Source of the DNA: Lepidostoma basale
Lineage: Eukaryota > Arthropoda > Insecta > Trichoptera > Lepidostomatidae
DNA length: 64,000 nt
Assembly (NCBI GenBank): GCA_022606425.2
Contig: JAHDVF020001334.1
Location: 124,001 to 188,000, forward strand
Direction: 5' to 3'
Numbering within the stretch: the stretch's first letter is position 1; the number at the start of each line of letters is the position of its first letter. This document shows positions 1,886 to 58,910 of the stretch, one piece after another. Below the pieces are notes generated by a model. That model was not told where the DNA came from. It saw only the letters and a list, made by a program, of their open reading frames with translations, and made no database searches. The translations under genes and the position numbers were made by a program.

Positions 1886-1918
1886 TACATGTTTCGGACT
1901 AACCAGCCCTTCATCAGT
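1886..1918 (-). ncRNA. Hammerhead-like ribozyme motif (H7, intact core)
   Basis: The minus strand reads CTGATGA, one extra A, stem II GGGCT/AGTCC with loop GGTT, then GAAAC within palindromic stem III ACATGT, then A at the predicted cleavage position. All conserved core positions (C3, U4, G5, A6, G8, A9, G12, A13, A14, A15.1, U16.1) are present. The extra base between A9 and stem II departs from the textbook hammerhead. Stem I is weak. Activity is inferred, not shown. Confidence 0.6.
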
Positions 1919-2225
1919 GATATTATATAATATAAATATTTAAAATATTATAAAATTGTTTAAAAATATTGTCAGTTTTGACAGATGTTAATAATCATTT
2001 AAAAAAAAAAATCAATAAAACATCTGTCAAAACTTTTATATTAATTTTTTTTTTAGATAATCGAATGATTTCACTGAAATATCTTGATGGAAGTTCATTT
2101 TAAATAATAATGAAATAATACGATGTTTTTTTTAACCACTTTACCCCTTTTTACTTCCACAAAAAGAAAGTAGTTAAAAAACATCGTTTTATTTAATTAT
2201 TATTTTAAATATTTATATAATATCA

Positions 2226-2256
2226 CTGATGAAGGGCTGGTTAGTCCGAACCATGT
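2226..2256 (+). ncRNA. Hammerhead-like ribozyme motif (H7, right arm, damaged)
   Basis: This is the inverted partner of the motif at 1886-1918. CTGATGA (2226-2232) and stem II are intact, but the GAAAC box reads GAACC (A15.1 replaced by C) and the stem III palindrome is interrupted. It is predicted inactive. Confidence 0.55.
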
Positions 2257-2354
2257 TTGATATTTTATTTCTTTTTATTTTTTTAAAAATAAATGTGAGT
2301 GTTGTAAGCAAAGAATATATAAAAAAGAAACAGTAAAATTGCATATTTCATTCA

Positions 2355-2690
2355 CGCGTGTCATGCCCGAATTTTGATTTCTACGACTTCTCACATTTAA
2401 AATTTGATAGATTTGTTGGTGATACGTTTTCCTCGGTTATCCTTTCTATCCTTAACATATACTTTCTTAATTTATTCTTTTCATGTGTCTTAACCATTTT
2501 TGTTACTTTTTAATTATTTTGTTCATAACACTTCCATTCGCGCTGCATTCACTTCTTAAATTTGCATTTGAAGAGAAAACATTTCTACTGCATTTATTCT
2601 ACGTTCATACTTCTTTAACCAATTCCATGTTTTACTTCTATACAAAAGGGTCGGTACACTATTGTGTACTGCCATCAAGATTATAATGTC
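2355..2690 (-). mobile_element. Family A non-LTR retrotransposon fragment
   Basis: Read on the minus strand, decayed family A C-terminal sequence runs from the MAVHN-like segment (2690) through the NKIIK and FGHM-type regions to the RGRPRKTW-like block near 2430. There are many frameshifts. It lies head to head with the plus-strand copy that begins near 2908, leaving about 220 bp of unassigned AT-rich DNA between them. Confidence 0.65.
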
Positions 2691-2907
2691 TAATTGTATT
2701 AATTATCGACCCCTACCACAAAAATATTCGAAGACATCGACAAAAGGTTTATCACACATTGATTATACCTGTCCCAATCCTTCAGTAATTACCTTCAGTA
2801 AAACGAAATATTTAAAAAAATATATGAGTATCATCACCATATTACCAGGTATACAATCTTACATTAGAGATTGTATAATATTTTTTTATAACATGGATTC
2901 CAATAGT

Positions 2908-3430
2908 TAGTGTGTGTGGTGCACTCAAAGTCATTACCGCAAATAGAAATATATCGACTAAATCAAAGATGGCAGTGCACAATGGAGTTCTAGTGCCGAC
3001 CCTGATGTATGGAAGTGAAGCTTGGAGTTGGCAGAAGGGATGAAAATAGGATAAACGCCGAAGAAATGAGGTCACTAAGAAGAATTTGTAGAAAAACTAA
3101 TGAAGTAAGAAATCTAATGATGAAGTAAGAAATGAATGTAAGGCGGATCAATAAGATGATTTGAATGAGGGAAGAATGGTTAAAAGATATATACAAGTAA
3201 TGTGAATGGAAAAAGAAATCGAGGTAGGCCAAGGAAGACATGGCATGACCAAATTAATGAATTAATGAAAAGCGGCCATGTTCGGAGTAGGAACAATCGA
3301 CGAGCGTGCATGTCACGATGTGTAAATGTAGAAGAGGCGCAAGAGTTATGTCAGGATAGAACAATGTGGCGATCCGTTCTCTCTGCTTTTCCTTTTCGGG
3401 GAAACGGCGTGATGGTTAGTTAGTGTGTAA
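2908..3430 (+). mobile_element. Family A non-LTR retrotransposon, 3' part
   Basis: The translation gives a GALKVI-like segment (2920), KMAVHNGVLVPTLMYGSEAW (2970-3035), RGRPRKTWHDQINE, RSRNNRRACMSRCVNVEEA and WRSVLSAFPF, ending at GGTTAGTTAG (3414-3423). This is the region after the reverse transcriptase core. The copy is 5'-truncated, and a deletion between about 3090 and 3180 removes part of the FGHME block. The last 73 codons (3202-3423) remain open. Confidence 0.85.
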
Positions 3431-3829
3431 ACAATTGTTCGTTTTATATTATGAACAATTTTAACAATCGTATATTAAGTCGTGTATTTTTTCCTTTTTA
3501 TTTTTGAACTTTGTTTTTATTAAATTAAGTTAAGGGATGTTATATCAGAACTGGGCTAGTAATAATTGAATTAAGCAGAATGGCTGCCTGGCCAGCCCCG
3601 GCGGACCGGAAAGGAAGTGCTATATCCGGTCCCCTAAAGCTCTCACTTCCGGTCGCTATGTGAATGCTGCGCGCAAGTGTTTTAGGAAGCTGTCTCTACA
3701 AAAATAAAGCGCAGGAAATGTACGATTGCTGGAATAATCCGCACGTTAGAGAATTTTTCACTAGCATTTGTGGTACAATCTGATGGGGCATTTTGTTGTA
3801 GTACATAAGAGAGTTAAAATCAACAAAAC
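3431..3829. other. No gene seen
   Basis: This stretch has no recognised repeat or coding sequence. Bases 3590-3660 are GC-richer (GCCTGGCCAGCCCCGGCGG and two CCGGTC motifs) and may be a decayed element end. Confidence 0.3.
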
Positions 3830-3905
3830 ATCGCCCAGTTTCTCCGGAGGGGTAGGCAGAGAGAATAGACTGCCACACTACTTTATCCCGACAAACTGAC
3901 GACTT
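3830..3905 (-). mobile_element. Family A 3' end remnant
   Basis: The minus strand reads VVWQSILSAYPSGETG, the family A terminus, with no tail repeat. Only about 75 bp is recognisable. Confidence 0.7.
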
Positions 3906-3937
3906 TTGTGACAGAGAAGCGAGAGCTATGACTGCCA

Positions 3938-3998
3938 CACCGAAGGTGCCGAGTAAGATTCAAATTGTATAAAGTAATTGGGCTTAAACGACCTGTTG
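3938..3998 (+). mobile_element. SINE S1, 3' end only
   Basis: It shares AATTGTATA.AGTAATTGGG and AAACGACCTGTTGT with the 3' end of the tRNA-derived SINE at 63271-63515. The tRNA-like head is absent. Confidence 0.6.
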
Positions 3999-4079
3999 TA
4001 TAGGGTGTTTTATTTAACGTATACAATACATATTAAAAAAAAACACATTAAAATAATGTTAATGTCTATGATTTTGGCT

Positions 4080-4364
4080 TTATTTAATATATAATTTTAC
4101 GCCATTATTGTTTAAATATGATCTCGGGCATATGAGCGCCACGGCTAGCTCGAATGAAGCGCAATCGTGAAGTCCAATTTTCGACAATTGTCGTCTTTGT
4201 GGATGCGTATTATCCACTAGAGTGTACATGGTGCGAAAATGATCCATGGTCTTCCGAATAACTTGCTCGGATGGACGATTATGTCGACCGTAAAATGGAC
4301 GTCGTGCACGATAAGTTTGGCGAACTGAACCATGATTTAAAAAAAAAGACGTTAGTCTATTCAT
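4080..4364 (-). pseudogene. DNA-transposase N-terminal (DUF4817-like HTH) fragment
   Basis: The 94-codon minus-strand ORF contains SVRQTYRARRPFYGRHNRPS and EQVIRKTMDHF. This resembles the helix-turn-helix region found at the N-terminus of many insect transposase-like proteins (DUF4817: RTYRA..YGRHNRP.E..IR..V..F). No catalytic DDE region follows; it runs into AT-rich DNA at 4080. Assignment is from memory of the family pattern. No terminal inverted repeat is seen, so the parent element is unknown. Confidence 0.6.
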
Positions 4365-4552
4365 GGTAAAATGGCAAAACGTACTGACTACAAATCAACT
4401 ATCAACTGTCAAATTGACAGTCTGTATAAATAATGTTGCCAGTTTAAAAACCAAACCTCTAAAAAAAAAACCTAATTATAAAAACACATGGAAAACATAT
4501 AATAGAATACACGGAAACATGGGAATCTTTATAGTTTCCTCCATATTCATAC

Positions 4553-4880
4553 AGCGAGTCTTATACATTATTGCCATAGATTGTTTTATCTCCCACGATG
4601 CAGAATTAACCTGCCAATGGTTATGCCGGTAGGTAGAGCAATATTTTTTGCCAAATCGTGTAATCTCGGAGGTCGACGTATTTAGTGATAGTGTAGTTGA
4701 CCTGTGGGAGGCGTTGTCTCTGTCATTGTTATAATTGTGAGTTCATAATATTATTTCATTATGTGTTATTTACTATTGTATCTCAAACTTTTTGTTAATA
4801 ATATTATGTATCATTGGTGTATCGGAATGTAGTTCTGTGATGCTTTTGCTATGTTTAAATAAATAAATAAATGAAATAAG
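4553..4880 (+). mobile_element. Family B (Jockey-like) non-LTR retrotransposon, 3' end
   Basis: The plus strand carries a short stretch related to the family B C-terminus (NLPMV-like, GRAI) followed by a 3' UTR and a tail of AAAT units (4857-4872). It resembles the minus-strand copy at 30888-31830 and lies almost tail to tail with the next minus-strand copy. It is heavily 5'-truncated. Confidence 0.6.
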
Positions 4881-4914
4881 TATAACAATTCTTTAACTTA
4901 ACATACTTTATGAA

Positions 4915-5398
4915 AGCCGTCGATCTCCGAGGAGACCGCGTTCAGCATATTAATTGCTCTTCCCACCGGTGTCACCAGAGGCAGGTTGGTTCTGGCGGCC
5001 GGTAGATATTCAATTTCAATTTCAATTTATTCAAAAAAATTATAAACATTACAGAAACACATCCAAATCGTTTATAATCACAAAAATAAAATTAACAATT
5101 TAAAAAAACATATTTACAAATAATATAACAAGAAAACAAATAAGAGTAAGTCAGAAAAAAGAAAAACAGAGGACAATTTAAAAAAAAAAAAAATCAGGGA
5201 CAAAAAGCCGAACATCCTCCAGCACGGCCGAGTTGTCGAAATATCCCCTGAGTAATCTAAAGAAATGGGTCATGAGATGCCCATCTCTTCGAATCTGCAG
5301 AGAATTGGTCCCGAGCATTCCCAAAAGAAATGCCGTGGGATAGAGCCACGGATAGCTACCATACTCCCTCATGTAGAGGTACCTAAGATTTTTTTTAA
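4915..5398 (-). mobile_element. Family B non-LTR retrotransposon fragment with inserted 3' UTR
   Basis: The minus strand encodes MREYGSYPWLYPTAFLLGML and FFRLLRGYFDNSAVL (5178-5372), the family B C-terminus, then NLPLVTPVGR-like coding at 4970-5000. Between them, 5008-5190 is a foreign A-rich insertion starting CAATTTCAATTTCAATTTA, which looks like the tail of another non-LTR element. The copy at 55928-56486 lacks this insertion, which supports it being secondary. Confidence 0.7.
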
Positions 5399-5499
5399 GG
5401 CTTTTGCCGTCTATTCATCGTAGTACTTTCATCTCGTTGACGTTGATGTCATAGGTAACTAAAATTATTATTTTTGTTAAAATATAAAAGTCATGCAAT

Positions 5500-5690
5500 A
5501 AGTCCTGCGTGAATGGGGGGCGGGCCTAGGGATTGTTTGAGCGAAGCTGACGAAGGGGCGCCGCTGCGTTCTTTAACAGCTTCGGGTAAGCGGCGGCTAA
5601 CCTTCTATGTCTTTATTTAACTGTTAGTTTGTTCATTTTGCAGTTGTATTAACAATCACTGTATGTTACCCTACAATAAATAAATGAAGG
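5500..5690 (+). mobile_element. Non-LTR retrotransposon 3' UTR (B2-like)
   Basis: It ends ATGTTACCCTACAATAAATA, matching the 3' terminus of the plus-strand element at 29850-30575 (ATGTTACCCTAAATAAATA). The body is relatively GC-rich (GGGGGGCGGGCC, GGGGCGCCGC). No coding sequence remains. Confidence 0.5.
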
Positions 5691-5699
5691 ATTAATATG

Positions 5700-6188
5700 T
5701 CAATGTCTCAATCACTGTACCAGAAGCAAAATATTTTTGATTTTGATTAGAATTTCTTATAATTTGTATGCTTCTGTTTTTCTGTTATTATAATAATTTA
5801 AAGGTTTATCGTGTATGGTACCATATACAAGAATTTTCTCTGTAAAACCCAGTTGCTAGGGGTAAGCTAATGTAAATAAATAATCTCACACCGAATGTTA
5901 AGCCGCGATAATGTTGCCAAATACAGTGGAACTCTAAAATTCGTTGTTAATCCATCCCCTAGGAAAGGATGAATATTAAAAAGGACGAATATCGAAAAAC
6001 TCTTCCCACAGGAATGAACAAAATATGATTTAATTTGATCCCAGCCTCGAATTTTGCTATAAATATATTATTTCAGAATTTTTTTAGACCATAAGTGGCC
6101 ACTGACAGGCAGTTTATAGAAATCTTACTCAAATAAGAAGTTTAAAGTTCTCTTAGACGATTGGGTTTTAAATATGCATACGATTAAT
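5700..6188. other. No gene seen
   Basis: AT-rich DNA. Bases 5920-6010 (GTGGAACTCTAAAATTCG ... GGACGAATATCG) share words with 7490-7550 (GGACGAATA) and may come from the same unrecognised old repeat. Confidence 0.3.
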
Positions 6189-6591
6189 GGTCCATTTACA
6201 CTGGACAGTTATTAGCCGATACCGACACGTCATGCGTTTGCGTTAAGCAAATAATCGTTTTGTTTGTTTTGATGGTGTCTTGTTACTTTTAATTAATGCC
6301 GATTACGTTCATATTTTATTTAAATTCCGAAATAATCGCCTTCTCCTCGGTGAATTTAAATGGTAGTAAAAACGGTATTCCGTAAAAAAGAATTATTTAC
6401 TGTAGGAAACACATCCTGAAAAATATTGATCATTTTTATTAAGTGTCAATTTTATGTAGGTAGGTGCTTTCTTCGGCAACCCCCGACGGCGATTTTATTA
6501 TAGCATTTGAGATAACGAGTCAGTGAGATTCAAGGCTATTTATATCGTGAAGTGTCGGTATCGGCTTATGAGTGTCCAGTGTAAATGGACC
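6189..6591. mobile_element. MITE-like element with about 40-bp terminal inverted repeats
   Basis: The left end GGTCCATTTACACTGGACA plus GCCGATACCGACAC (6189-6228) is inverted at the right end as GTGTCGGTATCGGC plus GTGTCCAGTGTAAATGGACC (6552-6591). The 400-bp interior has no coding potential. No clear target-site duplication is visible, so superfamily is undetermined. The arms still match at nearly all positions, suggesting fairly recent activity. Confidence 0.75.
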
Positions 6592-6619
6592 TCAAGGGAA
6601 ACAAACAAAGAAAACAAAC

Positions 6620-6925
6620 AATGAAAGGGACATTAAGATCGCTTGGACAAACGGGATCAAAAGAAGAAATATTGATAAAGAAAGTATGTGTTAATGATGT
6701 AAACGGAATAAGAAAGAGACGAAGACCGAGGAAAACATGGCACTTTCAAATAAATTAAATATTAAATATCGGCCACGCGAAGAGTCGGAGAAATAGACGC
6801 GCGTGCATGACACGAAGTTTAAATGTTCAGGAATCGAGAGAAGTATGTCAAAAAATAACAGTGTGGCGGTCCATTCTTTTGCTTACCCCTCTGAAGAGAC
6901 GGTGTGACGGTTAGTTAGTTTCTTT
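6620..6925 (+). mobile_element. Family A non-LTR retrotransposon, 3' end
   Basis: It translates to decayed VNDVNGI, RRPRKTWH, AKSRRNRRACMTRS and VWRSILLLTPLK-like pieces and ends GACGGTTAGTTAGTT. It is directly followed by a second same-strand copy, so the two may have arisen from insertion next to the old tail. Confidence 0.8.
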
Positions 6926-6927
6926 TA

Positions 6928-8272: not shown

Positions 8273-8273
8273 A

Positions 8274-13189: not shown

Positions 13190-13405
13190 ACTAAATATTC
13201 CATTGTTTCGGCCGAAACACTATGATACTTCAACATCATAAACTTTTAAATTATGAAACTCTCTTTTTTATGTATCACAATTTAAATTTTACTTTTCGCG
13301 ACAGCCGTATCGTCAAACAATGTTGACATCATCAGGTGTTACAATAATATGTCGCAAAAATTAAAAAATAAAATTGTGAAACGTAAAAAACAGAGTTAAA
13401 TAATT
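13190..13405. repeat. H1 palindromic repeat
   Basis: Order: CCATTGTTTCGGCCGAAAC, ATGATACTTCAACAT, ATGTATCACAATTTAAATT, CGCGACAGCCG, TCATCAGGTGTTACAATAA, then a partial right arm TCGCAAAAATTAAAAAAT and AAATTGTGA. The same order recurs at 40610-41170. The left arm carries a damaged hammerhead-like motif. Confidence 0.8.
13299..13335 (-). ncRNA. Hammerhead-like ribozyme motif (H1, damaged)
   Basis: The minus strand has CTGATGA, the extra T, stem II GTCAA/TTGAC, then GATAC in place of GAAAC (A14 changed), then GGCTGTC. The change in the invariant GAAA box predicts loss of activity. Confidence 0.5.
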
Positions 13406-14461: not shown

Positions 14462-14520
14462 GGTTGGCAGCAATATGTTTTGTGTGATTTTGGGTAACAC
14501 CGTGTGATTTCTCCTTCTCG

Positions 14521-14558
14521 ACTGACCTCTCGGAGATCGTTGCAGTCTCCATCTTCAG
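14521..14558 (-). ncRNA. Hammerhead-like ribozyme motif (H9, left arm, damaged)
   Basis: The minus strand has CTGAAGA, extra T, stem II GGAGA/TCTCC, then GAGAGGTC instead of GAAACGTC. The A14 change and broken stem III palindrome predict inactivity. Confidence 0.5.
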
Positions 14559-14641
14559 GGTAATGTGGTGGTGGCCATGATCATTACCTCATTCAATCAT
14601 TACCAATCACACAATCCTGAAGATTACAACACCACATTATC

Positions 14642-14676
14642 CTGAAGATGGAGACTGCAACGATCTCCGAAACGTC
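14642..14676 (+). ncRNA. Hammerhead-like ribozyme motif (H9, intact core)
   Basis: The motif has CTGAAGA (14642-14648), extra T, stem II GGAGA/TCTCC closed by a 9-nt loop, GAAAC (14669-14673), palindromic stem III ACGT and C at the predicted cleavage site (14676). Bases before CTGAAGA (ATC) can pair with those after the cleavage site (GGT), giving a 3-bp stem I. With only a 4-nt self-complementary stem III it would be expected to work as a dimer, if at all. Confidence 0.6.
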
Positions 14677-14830
14677 GGTCGAGAAGGAGAAATCACACGT
14701 TGTTACCCAAAATCACACAAAACATATTTCAACCGTTAATTTTTTATTCGTTTGATGAATGTTAAAATATTTTCATTAAATGTGATGAGACATACATTTT
14801 TAAGATTAAAATCAGAGTGGTGATCTAGGA

Positions 14831-20625: not shown

Positions 20626-20744
20626 AATGTATATTGAAATACGTATCCTTCGTTAATGAAATCAAATCAGGATATTTCTCAAATATATTACAAACATATA
20701 CCTATTAAAGTTTAAGGCGAACAGGTAAAATATAATAAACTTAC

Positions 20745-21480
20745 TAATTAACCATCACACCGTTTCTCCGAAGGGGTAGGCAGAAAGAATGGACTGCCAC
20801 ACTTTTTTCCTGACATATTTCTCTCGTTTCCTCAACATTCATACATCTTGTCATGCACGCGTGACGATTCTATGACTCTTCACATGGCCGACATTGAATA
20901 TTTGATTTATTTGATCGTGTCACATTTTCCTCGGTCTTTCTCTATTTCTAGTTCCATTTACATCGTAAATATATAATTTATTTAACATTCTCTCTTCATT
21001 CATTCTTTCTATGTGTCAAAATCATCTTAATGATCCTTTCATTACTTTGTTCATAACACTATCATTCGTACCGCATTTACTTCTTATATTTTCATTCGAC
21101 ACTCTATCATACACAGAGTATTCATACATTCGTCTAAGAGATCGCATTTTTACTGCATTTATTCTACTTTCACCCTTCTTTTGCCAGTTCCATGCTTCGC
21201 TGCCATGCATAAGGGTCGGTACAAGAACACCATTGTGCAATGCCATTTTAGCTTTTTTGGATTCACACTCGCCCATCTTTTGTAAACATACTACCCAAAT
21301 ACACGAACTCATCTACTTGCTCCAAATTTTCACCATTCACGCTAAAGTTGCAGACTGTCATGATTTCTTCTTTTTCAAACCTTGGATTATTCACATTCAT
21401 TATCAGACTATTTTGCATGTATACCTCATACATACTATTCATCATGACTTGTAGTTCATGCTCGTTGTCTGCAAATATAA
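20745..21480 (-). mobile_element. Family A non-LTR retrotransposon, long copy
   Basis: One of the longest A copies. The minus strand starts in the end of the RT domain (MMNSMYEVYMQNSLIMNVNN), continues NGENLEQVDEFVYLGSMFT and KMALHNGVLVPTLMHGSEAW, then EMRSLRRMYEYSVYDRVSNE and the RGRPRKTW/ACMTRC region, and ends with SILSAYPFGET and a CTAA-unit tail at 20743. The LNxNKSK-like motif (here MNVNN) follows the RT YxDD box, so the element had a normal non-LTR reverse transcriptase upstream. It is interrupted by frameshifts. Confidence 0.85.
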
Positions 21481-32284: not shown

Positions 32285-32459
32285 TTAATATTATTTATTG
32301 TTTCAGCATTCACTTTGTGGTAGGACATGATTAAATTGTAAATAAAACACTTGTTTTTCACCACTTGAGGTCTTACGCATGCTTTATAGATTATCATCTT
32401 ACTCTTAATGGCATCACAATATAATATCACAATTTCTTTCTATTCACTGAGAGTGTTGC

Positions 32460-32495
32460 GACAGCCGTTTCGCCACCCGATGTTGGCATCATCAG
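32460..32495 (-). ncRNA. Hammerhead-like ribozyme motif (H1, intact core)
   Basis: The minus strand reads CTGATGA, extra T, stem II GCCA/TGGC (extended by C-G), GAAAC, stem III ACGGCTGT (palindromic with one G-U) and C at the cleavage position, then GCAACACTCTC. The matching right arm at 32523-32545 has lost stem II, GAAAC and stem III by a deletion. Confidence 0.6.
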
Positions 32496-32649
32496 GTGCT
32501 ACAATAAACTATAATAGTTTATGGTAATACCTGATGCCAAGACTCTCAGTGAATAAAAATAAATTGTGATATTATAACAGTGCATTAAATTTTAAAAGTA
32601 ATAATTAAATTGTAAATAAAACACTTGTTTTTCACCACTTGAGTATTAT

Positions 32650-32815
32650 ATTTTACACGACTAGTTTCAGAAGCTACAGATGCTTCCATCTATAGGTTTA
32701 AATATAAACTCTACTAAGTTTATATTTAAACCTGTAGATGGAAGCATCTGTAGCTTCCGAAACTAGTCGTGTAAAATATAAAACTCAAGTGGTGAAAAAC
32801 AAGTGTTTTATTTAC
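32650..32815. repeat. H5 palindromic repeat
   Basis: Left arm TATTATATTTTACACGACTA, GTTTCAGAAGCTACAGATGC, TTCCATCTATAGG; right arm is the inverse. Centre TTTAAATATAAACTCTAC / TAAGTTTATATTTAAACC. Confidence 0.85.
32732..32768 (+). ncRNA. Hammerhead-like ribozyme motif (H5, one core change)
   Basis: CTGTAGA (A6 replaced by T), extra T, six-pair stem II GGAAGC/GCTTCC, GAAAC, palindromic stem III ACTAGT, C at the cleavage position (32768). The inverse arm reads CTATAGA with TGAAAC, so the arms differ at only a few sites. Confidence 0.5.
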
Positions 32816-32821
32816 AATTTA

Positions 32822-32856
32822 ATCATTGATCTTTGATATTAGTCTTTGAAAAAAAA
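32822..32856 (+). mobile_element. SINE S2 3' end, right piece
   Basis: ATCATTGATCTTTGATATTA then GTCTTTGAAAAAAAAC, completing the S2 end after the insertion. Confidence 0.65.
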
Positions 32857-33159: not shown

Positions 33160-33978
33160 CTTGTGATTCACAAGTCCTGGTGAGTAGTATGTATGAGGTA
33201 TGCATGCGAAATGATCTGATGTTGAATGTTAATAAGTCCAAAGTAATGATTTTTGAAAAATAAGAAATCATGACAGTCTGCAACATTAGCGTGAATGGTG
33301 AAAATTTGTAGCAAGTAGATGAGTTCGTGTATTTGGGTAGTATGTTTACAAGAGATGGGCGAGTGGAGAGGGATATTGAAAAAAGGGTTGGGCCAGGCAA
33401 CAAAGTGAATGGTGCATTTAAAGTTGTCATCGCAAAAAAAACAATCCAAAAAAGCTAGAATGGCAGTGCACAAAGGTGTTCTTCTACCGACCCTTATGTA
33501 TCGAAGCGAAGCATGGAACTGGCAAAACAAGGATGAAAGTAGAATAAATGCAGTAGAAATGAGATCTCTTAGACGAATACGTGGATACTCTGTGTATGAA
33601 AGAGTGTCGAATGAAAATACAAGAAGTGAATGCGGTGCGAATGATGGTGTTATGAACAAAATAATGAAAGGATCATTAAGATGGTTTGGACATATGGAAA
33701 GCATGAATGAAGAAAGAATGGTAAAAAAGTATATGCTTATGATGTAAATGGAACCAGAAATAGAGGACGACCGAGAAAAACGTGGCACGATCAAATAAAT
33801 CAAATATTGAATATCGGCCATGTGAGGAGTCAGAGAAATCGACGCGCGTGCATGACACGATGTATGAATGTTGAGGAAGCGTGAGAAATATGTCAGGAAA
33901 GAAAAGTGTGGCAGGCCATTCTTTCTGCCTACCCCTTCGGCGAGAAGGCGTGATGGTTAGTTAGTTAGTTAATTAGTT
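33160..33978 (+). mobile_element. Family A non-LTR retrotransposon, longest copy
   Basis: It starts after the RT YxDD box (SMYEVCMRNDLMLNVNKSKV), then NISVNGENL, QVDEFVYLGSMFTRDGRVER, DIEKRVGPGNKVNGAFKVVI, KARMAVHKGVLLPTLMYRSE, RSLRRIRGYSVYERVSNENT, GSLRWFGHMESMNEERMVKK, NRGRPRKTWHDQINQ and RACMTRCMNVEEA, and ends with a TTAG tail at 33955-33975. The ORF 33409-33747 is intact. Frameshifts occur near 33265, 33310 and 33740. Confidence 0.88.
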
Positions 33979-40329: not shown

Positions 40330-40545
40330 CCACTTGATTTTATGACTTCGACTGGTTTCGACAGCTCTTTGCCATCTTCTGATAAGTTAACATTATCAAG
40401 TGCCTTAGCAAGGCGAAACATGTCATTTCCATAATATGTACAAAACTTCTAGAAAACAGACGTTTTCATTCGTATTATATTTTTTATATGGAGTTTTACA
40501 TCATTGTTTAAGAAACAATAAATATAATATTTTCGTTATTTTTAA
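40330..40545. repeat. H10 left arm joined to H3 right arm
   Basis: Bases 40330-40400 are H10 (CACTTGATTTTATGACTTCG, ACTGGTTTCGACAGCTC). From about 40399 the sequence is the H3 right arm (GTGCCTTAGCAAGGCGAAAC, ATGTCATTTCC, AAACTTCTAGAAAACAGACG, GGAGTTTTACATCATTGTTT). The hybrid implies template switching or nested insertion. Confidence 0.7.
40350..40381 (-). ncRNA. Hammerhead-like ribozyme motif (H10, one core change)
   Basis: The minus strand reads CAGAAGA (U4 replaced by A), extra T, stem II GGCA/TGTC, GAAAC, stem III ACCAGT (one mismatch from ACCGGT), C. Confidence 0.45.
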
Positions 40546-40718
40546 TGGCTTTTTTAATATCTAAAATTAAAAGTTTACCTAATATTAGATTTCTATTAGA
40601 AACTTAATTTAAATAGTCCATTGTTTTGGCCGAAATATTTTGGCCTATGATACTTCAACATTATTATTGTTAAATTTTATGACACTGTTATAATATCACA
40701 ATTTATTTTTAATATCGC

Positions 40719-40754
40719 AACAGCTGTTTCGCCAACCGATATTGGCATCATCAG
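40719..40754 (-). ncRNA. Hammerhead-like ribozyme motif (H1, intact core)
   Basis: CTGATGA, extra T, stem II GCCAA/TTGGC, GAAAC, perfect 8-nt palindromic stem III ACAGCTGT, then T (an allowed H) at the cleavage position. One of the best preserved H1 copies. Confidence 0.6.
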
Positions 40755-41068
40755 GTGTTACAATAAACTTTTTACTTTTTAGAGATTATTCTTGAAAAAG
40801 TTTCCACATGTTTTAATGGATTATAAAATATATTTTATAGTAATCAGAAAAGTAATAATCTCTTTATTTAAAATGATCATTCATTTAATTAAAATTACGT
40901 CGAAATTTTGTACGTTACTAATCTTCTTCTTCTCAGTCGTATTCCTCATGATTGAGGGTCGTGTCTATCTTGTAAACTATTGATCATGGCACCTGTCAGT
41001 TTCCATGCTGCAGCTAATGAGATTCCAGTCAGATCCATCTCTAAAAAGTAAAAAGTTTATTTTAACAC

Positions 41069-41104
41069 CTGAAGATGCCAACATCGGTTGGCAAAACAGC
41101 TGTC
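41069..41104 (+). ncRNA. Hammerhead-like ribozyme motif (H1, damaged)
   Basis: CTGAAGA (41069-41075), extra T, stem II GCCAAC/GTTGGC, then AAAAC (G12 replaced by A, a CpG-type change), stem III ACAGCTGT, C. Predicted inactive because G12 acts as general base. Confidence 0.5.
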
Positions 41105-41204
41105 GCAACACTCTCAGGAATAAAAATAAATTGTGATATTTTAACAGTGTTATAAATTTTAACAGTAATAACTTATTTCTTCTATATTCGCCATTACTTT
41201 GTGT

Positions 41205-41292
41205 TGCGGATTCATATTTGAATTACTTTTTGATAACTTTGTATCACAACACTGTGTTGTGATACAAAGTTATCAAAAAGTAATTCAAGTAA
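41205..41292. repeat. Short perfect hairpin
   Basis: ATTACTTTTTGATAACTTTG then TATCACAACA / TGTTGTGATA then CAAAGTTATCAAAAAGTAAT (about 41231-41285). A near-perfect foldback of about 27-bp arms. Confidence 0.85.
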
Positions 41293-47374: not shown

Positions 47375-47502
47375 TAAGTAATAAAATATAAGATTTCTTT
47401 AACTAATTGAAAGCTAAGGCATTAACACTGGAATTCCAAAGTAATACACATAGAAAATGAAAAATACGTTTGTTTATTATAAACAAAATATAAAAAAACA
47501 AG

Positions 47503-47533
47503 ACATGTTTTAGAGGATACCTCCATCTTCAGG
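47503..47533 (-). ncRNA. Hammerhead-like ribozyme motif (H8, damaged)
   Basis: CTGAAGA, extra T, stem II GGAGG/CCTCT, then TAAAAC where GAAAC is expected (CG to TA change at the stem II/G12 boundary), palindromic stem III ACATGT, C. Confidence 0.5.
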
Positions 47534-47789: not shown

Positions 47790-47821
47790 CCGAAGATGGA
47801 GTATACCTCCGAAACAAGTAG
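47790..47821 (+). ncRNA. Hammerhead-like ribozyme motif (H8, damaged)
   Basis: CCGAAGA (U4 to C), extra T, stem II GGAG(G)/CCTCC, GAAAC, then ACAAGT, a mutated ACATGT palindrome. Confidence 0.45.
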
Positions 47822-49197: not shown

Positions 49198-49370
49198 TCT
49201 GTTATAATATTACAATTTCTTTTTATTCACTGAGTGTTGCGACAGCTGTTTCGCCACCCGATGTTGGCATCATCAGGTGTTCCAATAAACTAGTTTATTG
49301 TAATTCCTGATGATGCCAACACTCTCAGTGAATGAAAATAAATTGTGATATTATAACAGTGAAATATAAT
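49198..49370. repeat. H1 palindromic repeat
   Basis: Left arm: TGTTATAATATTACAATTTC, TTCACTGAGTGTTGCGACAG, CTGTTTCGCCACCCGATG, TCATCAGGTGTTCCAATAAA. Right arm: AGTTTATTGTAATTCCTGAT, GATGCCAACACTCTCAGTGA, AATAAATTGTGATATTATAA. The right arm lacks 25 bp covering stem II to stem III. It sits exactly at the 5' truncation of family D. Confidence 0.85.
49241..49276 (-). ncRNA. Hammerhead-like ribozyme motif (H1, intact core)
   Basis: CTGATGA (revcomp of 49270-49276), extra T, stem II GCCA-A-C / G-G-TGGC, GAAAC, perfect palindrome ACAGCTGT, C at the cleavage position (49241), then GCAACAC. Together with the 40719 copy this is the best candidate for a catalytic test. Confidence 0.6.
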
Positions 49371-49927: not shown

Positions 49928-50435
<508 letters not shown>

Positions 50436-50702: not shown

Positions 50703-51010
50703 ATATATTCAACCAAAGTGGAATCTACCAGATTAATTGTGAGGATTGTGATGCCGTGTATATTGGAAAGACGGGTCGATCATTTTGAAGAGTTTATATG
50801 AACACAACATTTAATACAAAAACAGAATCATTGTGTGAATTTTGACCATCATTTCAATTCCAAAAACACATTTTTTTTGCATATAGTAAACAATTTAAAA
50901 AAAAATTGATAAATTAGAAAATTTAGAAATTTTTAAAGCAAAGGCACGTGAATTGAATGTTATAAATAACCAAATTCCAGCTTATTCCCCCTTAGTATAT
51001 ATGTAGTACA
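50702..51010 (+). pseudogene. Penelope-like element GIY-YIG endonuclease fragment
   Basis: From 50702 the frame reads NIFNQSGIYQINCEDCDAVY then IGKTGRSF, stop. The GIY and YIG motifs, the paired Cys between them and the TGRSF segment are the signature of the C-terminal endonuclease of Penelope-like retroelements. After the stop the same frame continues with HFNSKNTF-type decay and ends NLEIFKAKARELNVINNQIP, AYSPL, resembling the final LE.EI.KA...LNNQ of the domain. At least two in-frame stops are present. No reverse transcriptase part remains upstream, because the sequence is fused at 50702 to an H1 flank. Confidence 0.78.
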
Positions 51011-51239: not shown

Positions 51240-52018
51240 ATTTAATACAACAACACAACAACAACAACAAACCATCACGCCGTTTCTCCGCAGGGGTAGG
51301 CAGAGAGAATGGACCGCCACACTACTCTATCCTGGCAACACCTCTCTAGCTTCCTCCACATTCATACATCGAGTCATACACGCACGTCGATTCTTCCGGC
51401 TTCTGACATGACCAACCTTTAATATTTGATTAATTTGGACATGCCATGTTTTTCTCGGTCTACCTCGACTCCTTACTCCATTTACATCGTTAACGTATAC
51501 TTTTTTTAACCATTCTTTCTTCACCCATGCGCTCCATATGTCCGAACCAACGCAACGAACCATTCATAATTTTGTTCATAATACCTTCTTTCGCTCTACA
51601 TTCTTTCCTAATATCAGCATTTGAGATTCTGTCATACATCGTTCTACCACACATACGTCTTAGGAACCTCATCTCTACCGCATTTATTCTGCTCTCATCT
51701 TTCTTCTGTCAGTTCCATGCTTCGCTTCCATACATAAGAGTTGGGACCAGAACTCCATTGTGAACGGCCATTTTCGCTTTCATTGATAAATTATTGTTTC
51801 CAATAACTACTTTTAAAGCTCCATTCACTTTGTTACCCGCACCAACCCTTTTTTCAACATCACTGTCCGTTCGGCCATCCGCTGTGAACATGCTACCTAA
51901 ATACACAAATTCCCTCACCTGTTCCAAGTTCTCTTCATTTACACTTATATTACAAACTGTCATTTGCTCTTCCCTTTCAAAAACTAACACCTTTGACTTT
52001 CCGACATTCATCAAAACA
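51240..52018 (-). mobile_element. Family A non-LTR retrotransposon, GTT-tailed, well preserved
   Basis: Minus strand: MMNVGKSKVLVFEREEQMTV, CNISVNEENLEQVREFVYLG, SMFTADGRTDSDVEKRVGAG, NKVNGALKVVIGNNNLSMKA, KMAVHNGVLVPTLMYGSEAW (ORF 52014-51709), then RMCGRTMYDRISNADIRKEC, FGHMERMGEERMVKKS and RSRGRPRKTWHVQINQILKV, RSRKNRRACMTRCMNVEEAR. Tail units are CAA/GTT (51252-51275). Only about three frame breaks in 770 bp. Confidence 0.9.
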
Positions 52019-52625: not shown

Positions 52626-52817
52626 AAGTCAAATTTAGTCAAATTTACGACAAATATAATTAATTTTAAATCATTTAAGTGATTTTTTCAAATGTTTTAA
52701 TAATTATTCTGTTATCCGGAACGGAGACAAATCCAGCAAATATAAGATCTTCAAAATTGGTCCAGCTGTTCTCGAGTTATAAATGGTGTAACTAACACGA
52801 TTTTTGACTTTGTTTTA

Positions 52818-53054
<237 letters not shown>

Positions 53055-53890: not shown

Positions 53891-53897
53891 TTCTTTG

Positions 53898-54010
53898 TTT
53901 AGTTTTTATTATATTTGTACACCGAAGATGGATGTATCCTCCGAAACATGTCGTGTTTTTTAATATTTTGAGGATTAAACCAAATTATTTTTAATTTCCT
54001 AAGTATATTA
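53898..54010 (+). repeat. H8 right arm
   Basis: TTATATTTGTACACCGAAGA, TGGATGTATCCTCCGAAAC, ATGTCGTGTTTTTTAATATT, TTGAGGATTAAACC, AATTATTTTTAATTTCCTAA. The outer part matches 47690-47760. Confidence 0.75.
53922..53952 (+). ncRNA. Hammerhead-like ribozyme motif (H8, core U4 lost)
   Basis: CACC-GAAGA where CACCTGAAGA is expected, extra T, stem II GGATG/...CCTCC with mismatches, GAAAC, perfect palindrome ACATGT, C (53952). Stem I is good in this copy: ACAC before the core pairs with GTGT after the cleavage position. Confidence 0.5.
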
Positions 54011-54194
54011 CGTATTTATTCATCTGAAAAAATGTAGCCAAAAACAAAAAAAAATATCTAAAATGTAAAATAATATATTATTAATATTTATCAATTTAGT
54101 CAATTTAGTCAATTTACCACTTTTTTGGTTATTTTACTTCACATTGTATTGAACAATCATAATATAGTCAAAAACTCGAGTGTCGTCAAGAAAG
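54011..54194. other. No gene seen
   Basis: AT-rich with a tandem AATTTAGTC pair at 54095-54112. Confidence 0.3.
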
Positions 54195-54310
54195 ATTACG
54201 ATAATTACAAGAGAGCGCGAGAGGAATGCTTTGATTATCTCCGAAAGTTATTAGAAATGCACACGATGCGCATGTCCGAGAACGTTTCTGGATTATTTTG
54301 AAATTTTTTC
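54195..54310 (-). repeat. Repeat R fragment
   Basis: Inverse of the R core: ACAAGAGAGCGCGAGAGGAA, AGAAATGCACACGATGCGCA, AACGTTTCTGGATTATTTTG, TCTGATTATTATTGTATC. Confidence 0.7.
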
Positions 54311-54829
54311 TGATTATTATTGTATCACATTACAAACAAATTAACCATGAAACTTAATGTAGAATTTGGTTTAATTCCAAACAAGTTATATTTAAACTGA
54401 AATGAAAAACAGCGTGTCTTAAATATTGTTAAAATATAAATCTGCAATTTACAAATAAATACTTCAAAGGAAGGGAAGATGGAATAGTACCAAAACCAGT
54501 TATCAGAGTACAGAGATGACGAAGTTAGTAAAACGAAGTTTAGGGAAATGAATGGTGAGACCAAAGTTGGTTAAATCAGTTACACATCTCACGGGTTGAA
54601 TTAGGAAGAAACTTCGCGGTCCTAATGCAGAGGAACTAAACAGGAGAACTTTATACCAACCTAAGAAACTGCTAAATGTTGAAAGCGTGAGTACTGACCC
54701 CCTAGGCTCTATGGGAATGTACGTTAATGATGCTGAAATGGATTTTTTTGAGACCAAGGGATCAGAAAACTTCGTTTCTCATTAACATATCGTATAAAAT
54801 ATATTATACGTAGGTTATCTCAACTATTT
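54311..54829. other. No gene identified
   Basis: Two minus ORFs (54325-54564 and 54503-54757) overlap here. The second contains SFLGWYKVLLFSSSALGPRS but no family is recognised. One strand reads as TKLVKRSLGK-type basic sequence. Unassigned. Confidence 0.3.
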
Positions 54830-54960
54830 GACGTTTCCAAGGGCGCTAGATATTGTATTCTCAGTTGCATCCCACTTGCCCCCTTAAAAATAATTGTCTT
54901 TGGAGTCTAGAGATGTCCTTATGGTTTCCTGTTCCCCAGATATATATATAATATGTTATA
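54830..54960 (-). repeat. Repeat U, uninterrupted copy
   Basis: TATTTGACGTTTCCAAGGGC, GCTAGATATTGTATTCTCAG, CCCCCTTAAAAATAATTGTC, TTTGGAGTCTAGAGATGTCC, TTCCCCAGATATATATA. It serves as the empty site for the insertion at 16192-16592. Confidence 0.75.
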
Positions 54961-55004
54961 ATGAAAACTCGATTGTTTAATCGGTTTTACAGTGCATTTT
55001 CATT

Positions 55005-55520
55005 TACCTTAACTAACCAACTAACTAATTAACCATCACGCCGTCTCGCCGAAGGGGTAGGCAGAAAGAATAGACTTTTCTTTCTCACACTTTTCTTTCC
55101 TGACATATTTCTCTCGCTTCCTCAACATTCATACATCGTGTCATGCACGCGCCACGATTTCTCTGACGCCTCACGTGGCCAACATTCAATATTTTATTTA
55201 TTCGATCGTGCCACTTTTCCTCGGGCATCCTCTATATCTAGTTCCATTTACATCGTTAACTTATATTTTTTTTTACCATTATTTCTTAATTCATTCTTTC
55301 CATGTGTATAAACCATCTTAATGATTTTTTCAATATTTTTTTCATAACACGTTCATAACATTCGCACTGCATTCGCATTCGCACTCATTTACACATTTAT
55401 CACACATTCGTCTTAGAGATTTTATTTTCTAGTGCATTAATTCTACTCTCTGTCTTTTGACAGTTTCATGTTTCACTTCTATACACAAGGGTCGATACTC
55501 TGCTTGTTTTTCATTCACAC
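55005..55520 (-). mobile_element. Family A non-LTR retrotransposon, 3' part
   Basis: TTAG tail (CTAACCAACTAACTAATTAA at 55012), SILSAYPFGETA, NVEEAREICQERKV, RHVRRQRNRGACMTR, RIEDARGKVARSNK-type decay and MVWTHGKNELRNNGKK-type pieces. Deletions near 55390 and 55450. Confidence 0.78.
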
Positions 55521-55734
55521 TGCTTTTGTGATTTCTTTGCTGAAGATTTTTAAAACTTATTTTTTTCTCATACATTCGTTCCATATGATTTATAAAATTT
55601 TATTAATATTAGATGGTGCTCTTATATAGAATAACTCTTGAGGTGCGATATGCCGATATATCGGCATAACACTTTATGTCCCTTAACCCTTTGGTTGCCG
55701 GCAATTTTAAGATACTTACAATTTTTAGATTTTC

Positions 55735-55865
55735 ATTTACAAATATATCTGACTGTTGATGATATACCTGTGGAGCAATTAATGAGTTTCGGATATTTGA
55801 GAGTAGAGATCTGCAGCCATAATTACCTTTATACCGAAGTACGAGAACAAGTCAGTTAAGCTTCT
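55735..55865 (+). mobile_element. Family D-like scrap
   Basis: LTVDDIPVEQLMSFGYLRVE, ICSHNYLYTEVREQVS resembles the VPVEQVxxFxYLGxEI...LxxEVRxQ segment that follows the RT domain in family D (compare QQVDQFRYLGSEVTSSNDLP at 48850). Confidence 0.65.
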
Positions 55866-56600
55866 GCTAATATATGGTCCAGAGAACGGCATTTGACACT
55901 GTTTGGGGCCAATAGACCTTGAATATTCAAATCAAATCAAATCAAATCAGTTTATTAACGCAAAGGACATTACAAAAAGGAAAATGTTTAAGGCATCTAT
56001 TAAGTACAGGTAAAATATTATAAAAATACAACAAAGTACCAGGAACGCATTAGAGATGGTTCGACATTAGAAAGACAAGATACTTTCTAAAGTCAATAGT
56101 ATTTGTCCCCTGAACGTACCTTCACTAATATAAAAAACGTCGATCTCCGAGGAGACCGCGTTCAGCAGACTAATTGCTCTTCCCACCGGTGTCACCAAAG
56201 GCAGATTGGTTCTGGTGGCCGGTTGGTAAAACAATCTGTGCTACTGCTGTCGGAGAAATCTATCAGGGACAAAAAGACCAACACCTTCTAGTACGGCCGA
56301 GTTCTCAAAATATCCCCTGATTAATTTAAAGAAATGGGTTATGAGATGCCCATCTCTTCGAAGCTGTAAAGAATTGGTTCTGAGCATTCCTAAAAGAAAT
56401 GCCGTGGGATAGAGCCACGGATAACTACCATACTCTCTCATGTCTCTACAGAATTTTTTTCTGAACTCTCTCCAGCATAACGAAGCAAAGGCACCTATTT
56501 ATAAACACCTGGAGTTTTCCAAAAACGTCCGCGGTAGATTTCCAAGTCTCACATCCGTACAGAAGTACACTTTTAATGCTACTAGTACGCTTTTAATGCT
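55866..56600 (-). mobile_element. Family F (RTE-like) copy split by family B
   Basis: F sequence at 55870-55927 (GTCCAGAGAACGGCATTTGA, CACTGTTTGGGGCCAATAGA) continues at 56487-56590 (AAAGGCACCTATTTATAAAC, ACCTGGAGTTTTCC, CCAAGTCTCACATCCGTACA). The intact F copy at 23430-23575 shows these are adjacent. A small tandem duplication (CTTTTAATGCTACT, twice) lies at 56570-56602. Confidence 0.82.
55928..56486 (-). mobile_element. Family B (Jockey-like) insertion, AAATC-tailed
   Basis: The tail AAATCAAATCAAATCAAATC is at 55928. Then a 3' UTR shared with 34790-34870 and 45440-45540, NLPLVTPVGRAISLLNAVSS-like coding (56140-56220), and the ORF 56441-56241: MREYGSYPWLYPTAFLLGML, FFKLIRGYFENSAVLEGVGL, FVPDRFL. 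Only small frame damage. Confidence 0.85.
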
Positions 56601-57059
56601 ACTTTTCGTAGAAATATTAATATTTTTTGTACCCAAAGGGTTAAACATGGCTTAATCTTAGGAAATTTATTTTGCAAAATGCATGAGGCGAATTGTGCGT
56701 TAGCCTTCGCGTTCGCTATTTCATACATTTAACAAGAACTAGCATTCGCCCGGAAGGTGTTCCATCAGCCGTGTTAACGTTTCTGAAGAAATAAATCAAG
56801 GAAATGACATCTTCGTGGAATATTAATACCGAGGCGGAAGATCTTAAAAATATACGTAAAGCGTGCTTGTTTATTTTGTATTTCTCGCGTTCTTTGAGTT
56901 TTACTTGATTGATACATTTCATATTTTAACTTGTGAAGTACTTTGAGATGTGCTGTATGTTTTATATATATAATGGGTTACGAATTTTTTATACATTAAA
57001 ATACTGTTTTGTCATTTTTAAATTAACTTTTCTCGACACGAGAGAACGATGTAGTTTAT
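56601..57059. other. No gene seen
   Basis: The minus ORF 56716-56922 has no recognised motif. AT-rich otherwise. Confidence 0.3.
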
Positions 57060-57250
57060 CATAAAATCAAATGATTTAACTGAAATCTCTTGATGGAAGT
57101 TTTTTTAAAATTATAATGAAATAAAATGATGGTTTTAATAACTACTTCCTGATCTGTCTTTTTTTCGACAGGGACCGGTTTCGCCAGGCTCGCTGGCATC
57201 GACAGACTGGTGACACTATTGCAAACCGAGTCCTTTATATACATACATAT
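57060..57250. repeat. H2 repeat, left arm
   Basis: AAATGATTTAACTGAAATCT, CTTGATGGAAGTTTT, AATGAAATAAAATGATGG, TAACTACTTCCTGATCTGTC, GGGACCGGTTTCGCCAGGCT, GACAGACTGGTGACAC. The first part is shared with H7 (2050-2130: ATTTCACTGAAATATCTTGA, TGATGGAAGTT), linking the two families' outer regions. Confidence 0.7.
57173..57205 (-). ncRNA. Hammerhead-like ribozyme motif (H2, one core change)
   Basis: CTGTCGA (A6 to T), extra T, stem II GCCAG/CTGGC, GAAAC, perfect palindrome ACCGGT, C. Confidence 0.5.
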
Positions 57251-57539
57251 CAGGGGTGGTTAGTCTTGGACTTGGATCTCTGATTTTTGGAGTGAGACTC
57301 GGAAGTCTGTTACTCCTTCCCATTGACGAGTTATGTGGTGGGTGGTTAGTATGATTCTGTGCAAAAATAATCTTCAAATAATTATGTAAAATTTTCTGTA
57401 TTTAAATATTGGTATTATAGGTATTCAAGAAGACTCATATTCAATTCAATGGATTTAAAATATAATTATAGCTGACATATTAAAATGTAACGTTATATAA
57501 AAATATAATAGCTATAATAAAATTAAATAAATCGATGTT

Positions 57540-57695
57540 TCTAACTACTTCCACTTTTGCCTTTATTTGACAGAGACCGGTTTCACCAGGTTCGCTGACC
57601 AGTCTGTCGATGCCCAGTGAGCCTGGCGAAGCTGGTCGCTGTCAAAATAAAGACGAAAGTGGAAGTAGTTCAAAACCTTGTTTTACGAGTATTTA
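57540..57695. repeat. H2 palindromic repeat
   Basis: AACTACTTCCACTTTTGCCT, TTGACAGAGACCGGTTTCAC, CAGGTTCGCTGACCAGTCTG / CTGTCGATGCCCAGTGAGCC, TGGCGAAGCTGGTCGCTGTC, AAAGTGGAAGTAGTT. Compact 150-bp foldback. The right arm's GAAAC is GAAGC. Confidence 0.8.
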
Positions 57696-58077
57696 ATTAT
57701 TAATTAAGGATAAAAATGCTGTCGTTAAAAAAATACTTGGAACTTCAAAAGAAACGACGGTTTCTTACAAAAGTTTTTTTAAATAAAATTGGCTTACTGA
57801 ATTTTTTCCCGCCGCTTAGATTATAGGGCGTCTTAAACCCACCCACAATACCTAATTACACACATCAATTTAAAAGTTTTTCGCGCGACCGAATAAAGAT
57901 GTAATATAAATTAATTAGTGCTTATTCCCCATTGGCTGCTCCCACTGAAAAGAAGATTTCACCAACTAAAAGCTTCCCCTAATATTTCAGGTCATCAATC
58001 AAAAGCAACCACGCTGGGCGCGGCCTCTGAGGTGCCACACTCGGGATGGTTGATATGTTCGCGAGACAAGCGAAAAT
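57696..58077. other. No gene seen
   Basis: Unassigned. Bases 57918-58060 have moderate GC but no recognised motif. Confidence 0.3.
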
Positions 58078-58560
58078 CTTCTTCTTCTTCTTCTTCTTCT
58101 TATCCTTATAGACCTTTGTTCTGTTCCTGAAATCAGGCTGGCCTCTCTTGGGAGGTTGACTCCCAGTTATCTCTCCATCTCTTCGGCGGTCTTCCGGGGG
58201 GACGGCAGCCGGCAGGAGTCTGATGCGCCACAGCGTGTGGGATTCTGGTGGGATCCATCCTCTGCACGTGCGCATTCCAGTATCTGCTGCGGTGTCTGCC
58301 CCATCTCACGACATCCTCCGCCTTGCAGATCTCGCGGATGGCCGCATTCCTCACCCTATCGCGAATAGTTTTTCCTGCTATCATCCTCAGCGTCCTCATC
58401 TCTGCCACCCGTACTTTAGCCTTCGTTCTCGTGGTATCCGCTCTGGTCTCAATAGTATATGTCAGTATAGGCCTTGCGCAGGTTTTATATATTCTGACCT
58501 TACTGTCAGTTCTCATATACTTGTTTTTCCATATTATATCCTTGAGACAACAACAAGCGA
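58078..58560 (-). mobile_element. Family D (RTE-like) C-terminus, well preserved
   Basis: The minus ORF 58624-58133: CLKDIIWKNKYMRTDSKVRI, YKTCARPILTYTIETRADTT, VRVAEMRTLRMIAGKTIRDR, VRNAAIREICKAEDVVRWGR, WNAHVQRMDPTRIPHAVAHQ, CRPPGRPPKRWRDNWESTSQ, ERPA. It ends in GAA repeats (58079-58100). It is open over the whole preserved length, so it is a young copy. The 5' end stops at CLKDIIW (58555). Confidence 0.9.
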
Positions 58561-58639
58561 AAATCATGTAATGAAAAACAGTTCTGAATATTACAAAAGT
58601 TTGACCAAACCGAAAATTTCTCATGATATCCTAAGTCAA

Positions 58640-58740
58640 TCAAAGGAATGAAAACGTCTGCTCTCTAGAAGTTATATTATAATCTATGAGAATAACATGC
58701 TTTGCCTTAGATAATGTCGAAGATATGCGGCGTAAAAAAT
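58640..58740. repeat. H3 repeat, left arm
   Basis: GAATGAAAACGTCTGCTCTC, TAGAAGTTATATTATAATCT, ATAACATGCTTTGCCTTAGA. It is cut at the junction with H4. Confidence 0.6.
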
Positions 58741-58910
58741 AAATTGGAAAGTACTTTTGTAGGAAGCTCTCAAGTCGATGTTGTCGAACCAACCGGTTTC
58801 GCTGGCGCCGGGTTACAAAAAGTGTTTATTTTGTAACTCTGACGATGCTCCGGGGGGAACGAAACCACTTAGATTGATTAAAAAAAATAAAATGGCTTGA
58901 AAACAAAGGA
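58740..58910. repeat. H4 palindromic repeat
   Basis: The left part (CCAACCGGTTTCGCTGGCGC, GGGTTACAAAAAGTGTTT) is partly inverted in the right part (TTTTGTAACTCTGACGATGC, GGGGGGAACGAAACC). Confidence 0.65.
58839..58870 (+). ncRNA. Hammerhead-like ribozyme motif (H4, intact core boxes)
   Basis: CTGACGA (58839-58845), extra T, stem II GCTCC/GGAAC with one mismatch and loop GGGG, GAAAC (58861-58865). Stem III here reads ACCACT, not a palindrome; the opposite arm has the palindromic ACCGGT followed by T. Stem I potential: GTAACT before the core. Confidence 0.5.

Follow-up and report, generated by a model that had tools for sequence, protein, structure and literature searches.

A stretch of 64,000 nt from the genome of the caddisfly Lepidostoma basale (assembly GCA_022606425.2, contig JAHDVF020001334.1, positions 124,001 to 188,000; hereafter the window) holds a series of short motifs that resemble the core of the hammerhead ribozyme. 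We consider it very probable from their sequences that these motifs are minimal type I hammerheads with an extra A or U after A9, carried in the pseudo-long terminal repeat (pLTR) or 5' leader of several families of Penelope-like retrotransposons, mostly as short head-to-head insertions. Each hammerhead would combine a stem I with internal loops, a stem II, and a palindromic stem III of 4-8 nt. The motif pattern is CTGANGA, one extra A or T (the linker), stem II, GAAA, a palindromic stem III and then H (any base except G). E-values given for the motifs are rough, and come from a custom covariance model built from 12 window motifs. The window contains the following features, numbered from its first letter.

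1886-1917, minus strand: F1 hammerhead-like motif, ACATGT, with an A linker; it forms the left half of its head-to-head pair
2226-2257, plus strand: right-half partner of the preceding motif, its GAAAC decayed to GAACC (E 0.0071); the flanks TGATATT/AATATCA offer a potential 7-bp stem I
13300-13335, minus strand: F3 motif in the ACGGCTGT form with one core change; the inverted-repeat centre lies inside the motif
14472-14728: F2 palindromic head-to-head pair, 84% between arms; motifs at 14642-14676 (plus strand, ACGT stem III) and, weaker, 14524-14558 (minus strand, E 0.048)
32420-32580: F3 head-to-head pair; motif at 32460-32495 (minus strand), right arm without part of the motif
32600-32827: palindrome of the ACTAGT family (H5), 95% between arms; motifs at 32659-32695 (minus strand) and 32732-32768 (plus strand)
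40350-40381, minus strand: ACCAGT motif (not ACCGGT), with no inverted partner within 600 bp
40661-41171: F3 head-to-head pair with other DNA separating the arms; motifs at 40719-40754 (minus strand) and 41069-41104 (plus strand)
47502-47532, minus strand: ACATGT motif with a T linker; partner at 47790
47790-47820, plus strand: head-to-head partner of the preceding motif
49199-49359: F3 head-to-head pair; motif at 49241-49276 (minus strand) with ACAGCTGT, right arm without part of the motif
50717-51003, plus strand: decayed C-terminus of a Penelope-like GIY-YIG endonuclease, in pieces that lie in three frames and in the right order
53922-53952, plus strand: additional motif CCGAAGAT..GAAACATGTC (E 2.6e-4), no partner found
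57071-57490, minus strand: pLTR stretch with an ACCGGT motif at 57173-57205 (minus strand); weak partner motif at 57604-57637 (plus strand, E 0.065)
58839-58870, plus strand: core boxes only (E 0.061), no palindromic stem III

A preliminary description of the window had named six sites that keep both CTGANGA and GAAAC. All six carry both boxes, against a mean of 0.75 matches in shuffled sequence, and none of 100 shuffles reached six; three of the six, at 32460, 40719 and 49241, belong to one family. We also applied a stringent rule that required, besides the core boxes, 4 bp or more of stem II and a stem III palindrome with T as its last base, followed by H. Exact cores then numbered 5 against a shuffled mean of 0.08, cores with one change 5 against 0.63, and cores with two changes 11 against 7.05 (60 shuffles), so that the two-change class lies near background. 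Its family-specific stem III palindromes are present, and the families differ from each other outside the core. The site at 58839-58870, which it had also taken as hammerhead-like, has the boxes but no palindrome, and its stem II forms 0, 1 and 0 bp at linkers of 0, 1 and 2; we regard it as degenerate or chance.

The window is not special in its genome (768.8 Mb in 1572 contigs). In a 200-kb comparison sample, made up of twenty 10-kb stretches at round coordinates of contigs that the genome search for the ACTAGT family had brought up, which are not strictly random and include 2500 N, the same rule gave 13 exact matches against 0.1 in shuffled sequence, 9 one-change matches against 2.7, and 37 two-change matches against 28.9 (10 shuffles). 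An additional A or T separates GA from stem II in all 10 window matches with no or one change and in all 13 exact sample matches; two of the nine one-change sample matches lacked the extra nucleotide and one had two. Selection on the boxes alone gave 56 matches in 264 kb, compared with 4-19 across eight shuffles, and among the 33 distinct motifs the spacer base was C three times and otherwise A or T (30 motifs). With a linker of 1, 24 of the 56 matches formed a stem II of at least 4 bp; a linker of 2 allowed this in one, itself among the same 24. The textbook linker of 0 was found in no exact-core match in the window or the 200-kb sample, and no box-only match formed 4 bp with it (n = 56).

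Pairing within the motifs was consistent with this geometry. Across the 33 distinct box-only motifs, 107 of 132 stem II cells were paired, whereas 2000 partner shuffles gave a mean of 66 and a maximum of 87. For 12 window motifs, of which the majority had been chosen by a stem II rule, the covariation score was 0.742 against 0.254; for 54 sample matches that the custom model had both found and aligned, it was 0.794 against 0.201. In neither set did any of 500 shuffles score as high, and covariation supports stem II. In the 12 window motifs, five of six pairs showed changes in both partners, and pairing fell from 86% to 39-51% when the partner was shifted by a column. The stem I flanks, which played no part in selection, paired at -6.96 kcal/mol in their own combinations and at -5.08 kcal/mol when permuted (0 of 200 permutations as good; 22 family representatives drawn from 38 motifs). 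Stem I is uneven, most F3 copies having one contiguous pair beside the core. A count of contiguous pairs had suggested that stem I was absent; this was overturned once internal loops were allowed, and a helix with internal loops is supported. Of the 47 model matches, 33 (23/32 in the sample, 10/15 in the window) have as stem III a perfect palindrome 4-8 nt long, which would form a stem only if one copy paired with another. At position 17, 2 of the 22 representatives read G, one of them as an offset effect of an imperfect palindrome.

The custom model returned 15 matches in the window, of which 12 are its training set, and 32 matches at E<0.01 in the 200-kb sample, outside that set. Of the covariance models proposed earlier, those of Rfam for the hammerhead find nothing in the window, and the custom model recovers its motif elsewhere in the genome. 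Stem II pairing in box-only motifs, stem I complementarity, and model matches beyond the training set support selected RNA structure behind the motifs, as the preliminary description had held.

The pattern with the extra A or T also occurs in the IMG/VR virus collection, on 16 contigs (L047-L062, for example L048 4418-4452, plus strand); in 14 of these, every one with T, stem II reaches 5 bp or more. When the additional nucleotide was dropped from the pattern, 26 contigs were found, so both forms exist in that collection. Seven of these contigs were put to Rfam: none of the five that have the extra nucleotide matched a hammerhead at E<=0.1, and one of the two that lack it matched weakly. By eye, the flanks of some extra-A/T contigs fit a stem I. 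On L070, a hammerhead-like core shares the contig with two type-P5 twister ribozymes, at 1318-1377 and 1810-1867 on the minus strand (Rfam, E 2.4e-7 and 1.5e-8).

Self-comparison of the window showed that long inverted repeats, for example of 120-274 bp, coincide with many of the motifs. Judged by where the centre falls, head-to-head pairs account for 19 of 32 sample matches (about 15 elements) and 13 of 15 window matches (about 9 elements); both halves of a pair count, and these 32 of 47 matches represent about 24 elements. Earlier tail-to-tail labels were a tie artefact of contiguous palindromes. The common layout and the common extra A/T nucleotide make it misleading to call the families unrelated, as had been done; they resemble pLTR families that diverged within a single class of retrotransposon, which is our reading for all families except ACCGGT, where a coding element can be followed.

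We searched the genome for the GIY-YIG endonuclease and scored 150 of 541 candidates. There were at least 62 matches, including five close pairs on one contig, all in -/+ (head-to-head) order. On C742, a stop-to-stop frame of 758 aa carries both a reverse transcriptase (RVT_1) and a GIY-YIG domain, and its 3' flank contains CTGTCGATGCCAGCGAGCCTGGCGAAACCGGTC, the window's ACCGGT family, from C742:7668, about 460 bp after the endonuclease match. At its start, this element repeats its 3' end in inverted orientation (at least 251 bp, 99.6%). The window's minus-strand stretch at 57071-57490 matches the 3' end of the C742 element, at 79% over 57340-57490 and at 88% over 57071-57260. Relatives of the Penelope protein occur in Phthorimaea, Euphydryas, Diabrotica and Schistocerca, among the matches listed (120 of 1341). 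The motif's position in the 3' flank of a reverse transcriptase and GIY-YIG frame establishes, at the level of sequence, a Penelope origin for the ACCGGT family; the relation to Penelope-like elements suggested in the preliminary description holds in that family, and the others are not linked. The window's own GIY-YIG relic (50717-51003) lies near (TA)n arrays at 49928-50431 and 52816-53052.

The ACTAGT family provided the most detailed view of the pairs. We scored 40 of 878 genome candidates and aligned 24 loci, which represent 19 distinct places. There are at least 40 scored full-length copies; those with the best scores match the window copy at 91-96%, and 'relics', the term used before, is too strong for this family. 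Each element has the form rc(U)-junction-U. The arm U has two alternative ends, and we call the 42 nt by which the longer form exceeds the shorter the tail. Exactly one arm was tailed in 16 of the 19 copies, both arms in none, and neither in one, which is the window's own; two had a partial tail. The tail lay on the left in nine copies and on the right in seven. Direct repeats of at least 10 nt, a length that may include end bases of the element, bound 14 of the 19 copies. At the centre, 14 copies had an insert (1-13 nt, 13 of them different), four had none, and one had a 5-nt overlap. The start points of all 38 arms agree to within 5 nt and precede the ribozyme core. They therefore span the predicted cleavage site, and their templates were not cleaved there.

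ACTAGT copies such as L004 have an ATG formed from A9-U-G10.1 that opens a frame through the tail (MEASVASETS...MSYHKVNAETINNI). The core ATG was considered as a general start of the open reading frame (ORF) and rejected, given frames of 27-119 aa in ACTAGT, 35-46 in F2, 3-34 in F3 and 11-46 in ACCGGT, and A-linker families without an ATG; length alone shows nothing.

These features would best be explained if the element's enzyme cut both target strands and each cut end primed reverse transcription of the same kind of pLTR RNA. Priming would use two adjacent start sites, one yielding the tail and the other none. The complementary DNAs (cDNAs) would both reach the common 5' end of the RNA, upstream of the ribozyme, and would be joined there by host repair. 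The predicted hammerhead cleavage may take place as a dimer or with the help of a protein. With two primings per insertion, each pair should have a single tail, a constant 5' end and a junction of its own, the combination seen in most ACTAGT copies. As a conjecture that we hold at somewhat less than even confidence, this may be the rule for Penelope-like insertion in this genome: both cut strands would prime on the same kind of RNA, one from the tailed start and one from the tail-less start, to give an asymmetric head-to-head pair. The 5' end of the template would lie upstream of the hammerhead, the ribozyme not making it, and the extra A/U would be a conserved variant of the core, with an AUG inside the core in T-type families.

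An alternative that we judge unlikely is that the palindromic pair is itself the replicating unit, a hairpin RNA copied whole by a Penelope enzyme acting in trans. The two arms of an ACTAGT copy do share subfamily variants above chance: within-copy agreement was 119/138 against 111.3 expected (13 of 2000 permutations as high), nine minor variants were shared between arms against 3.9 (1 of 2000), and L019 has a small insertion in both arms. By contrast, single-base variants private to one copy were confined to one arm (37 vs 0). The variable junctions, and a tail that lies on either side and never on both, are not expected from whole-unit copying.

Less probable still, in our estimate, is that the families are several independent retrozyme-like elements, related to non-LTR retrozymes and propagated through small circular RNAs cleaved by the hammerhead, with a layout reached by convergence. 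Animal retrozymes are described with type I hammerheads that have a weak helix III, some of which act as dimers (PMC7229834, PMC7761336). The differences between families outside the core, and one ACCGGT-family arm that begins near the predicted cut, would also fit. However, the retrozymes proposed in the preliminary description find no counterpart in the layout: no tandem array with a 170-400 bp unit is listed in the window, and inverted pairs lie at its motifs instead. None of the 38 ACTAGT arms begins at the predicted cut, and the ACCGGT motif adjoins a Penelope frame.

Foldback or miniature inverted-repeat (MITE-type) DNA transposons, whose palindromes would hold the motif for DNA-level reasons, are very improbable: the long inverted repeats and the at least 40 scored full-length genome copies of one palindrome are in their favor, whereas the variable-length flanking repeats, the 42-nt extension on one arm only, the junctions that differ between copies, the stem II pairing in hammerhead geometry, and the link of one family to a reverse transcriptase and GIY-YIG frame are against them. 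Chance occurrence of short boxes in AT-rich, hairpin-rich DNA can be set aside as barely credible, since, few as the fixed core bases are and close as the two-change class lies to background, shuffles were exceeded by the exact class in the window and in the separate sample, and by the one-change class in the window, and stem II pairs.

Several observations weigh against our reading of Penelope-like hammerheads inserted in pairs. ACCGGT is the only family tied to a coding element. One of its arms (L008/L014, a single place, near 370) starts within about 3 nt of the predicted cut; several other ACCGGT-family arms start at about 404-415 of the 548-bp 3' end of the Penelope-like element, in which the core starts at 416. 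The extra nucleotide departs from the textbook hammerhead core, and a search with Rfam at E<=10 found no hammerhead in the whole window, in L046, or in window positions 14600-14720 alone. Stem III was an imperfect palindrome in 14 of the 47 model matches. Two of five covariation measures were unremarkable in both window motifs and sample matches. For the number of pairs altered in both partners, 213 (window) and 44 (sample) of 500 shuffles were as high; for further pair types, 83 and 241 of 500 were. No inverted partner lay within 600 bp of 14 of the 47 matches, and the centre lay 0-9 nt inside the motif in 4 of 32 head-to-head rows. One match of the 47 (L036 8918, plus strand) was scored tail-to-tail; it probably belongs to a head-to-head pair that scored below an adjacent 328-column palindrome, since a minus-strand motif lies just before it, at L036 8812. 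Tail peptides are weak as the start of a Penelope ORF, with 3 of 300 shuffles as good for ACTAGT, 6 of 300 for F3, and 31 of 300 for a longer ACTAGT peptide.

The sequence comparisons directly show the core, the pairing of stem II, the inverted layout and the link of one family to a reverse transcriptase and GIY-YIG endonuclease and, in the ACTAGT family, the direct repeats, the single tail per pair, the varying junctions, and the subfamily variants common to both arms.

Other repeats share the window. Many copies, for example at 33220-33975, 51249-52013 and 20733-21263, are related and, by eye, resemble 5'-truncated non-LTR retrotransposons; some end in short tandem tails of the GTTA type. 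A near-perfect inverted repeat of 77 bp (96%) at 41215-41291, which is probably a foldback, has weak Rfam matches to microRNA families on each strand.

Minimal type I hammerheads of Penelope-like elements were reportedly described by Cervera and de la Pena in 2014 and by Lunse et al. in 2017. An extra core nucleotide between A9 and stem II is said to have been found by de la Pena and Flores in 2001 in the hammerhead of a viroid, chrysanthemum chlorotic mottle viroid (CChMVd), whose ribozyme reportedly has full stems, unlike the motifs here.

Published accounts of Penelope-like hammerheads place the core in pLTRs, with a rudimentary stem III, and include a proposal of dimer action (PMC7761336, PMC6466107). 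Our motifs share the location and the rudimentary stem III; they differ in the extra A/U after A9, present in 18 of 18 exact matches in the window and sample. Poseidon of Anolis carolinensis (PAc) is an element with GIY-YIG and reverse transcriptase domains and a hammerhead near the start of its ORF. Its enzyme cuts and extends both strands, two adjacent internal reverse transcription start sites bound the tail, and the hammerhead is protein-dependent in vitro and dispensable for insertion in vitro (PMC11167929). The PAc locus described there is a tandem array, whereas short inverted pLTR pairs are common here; and the in vitro start site reported for PAc was the same for both strands, whereas exactly one arm is tailed in 16 of 19 ACTAGT copies.

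Penelopes of the rotifer Adineta vaga have a similar layout, with inverted head-to-head pLTRs, a target site duplication of 8-10 bp and an optional tail of about 31 bp on one pLTR (PMC3846280). Inverted pLTRs, a target site duplication and an optional one-arm tail are common to both systems, but the copies described in A. vaga are few, whereas one family here has at least 40 scored full-length short pairs. For A. vaga, self-priming on an antisense template is the favored view; here, the single tail of each pair and the varying junctions favor two primings. Non-LTR retrozymes of animals, as described in PMC7229834, resemble our elements in their type I hammerhead, a helix III that is weak in some species, and short AT-rich repeats; they are direct tandem repeats giving circular RNA, whereas ours are mostly inverted pairs. 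Within the open-licence literature that was covered, we found neither a rule that solo pairs carry one tail nor the extra nucleotide described for Penelope hammerheads; either may be described elsewhere. The novelty is moderate, since minimal and possibly dimeric Penelope hammerheads are already in print (PMC7761336, PMC6466107).

The kind of element is already known, and the mechanistic reading of the pairs is worth testing: the completion of Penelope-like insertion and the role of the hammerhead are described as open (PMC11167929, PMC7761336). Rfam hammerhead models miss every copy in the window. With 32 model matches (E<0.01) per 200 kb, the high density of short insertions amounts to a natural experiment, since the sequence itself displays the tails, the junctions and the 5' ends of the templates, for comparison with the enzyme in vitro. 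The pairs record in unusual detail how Penelope-like elements insert.

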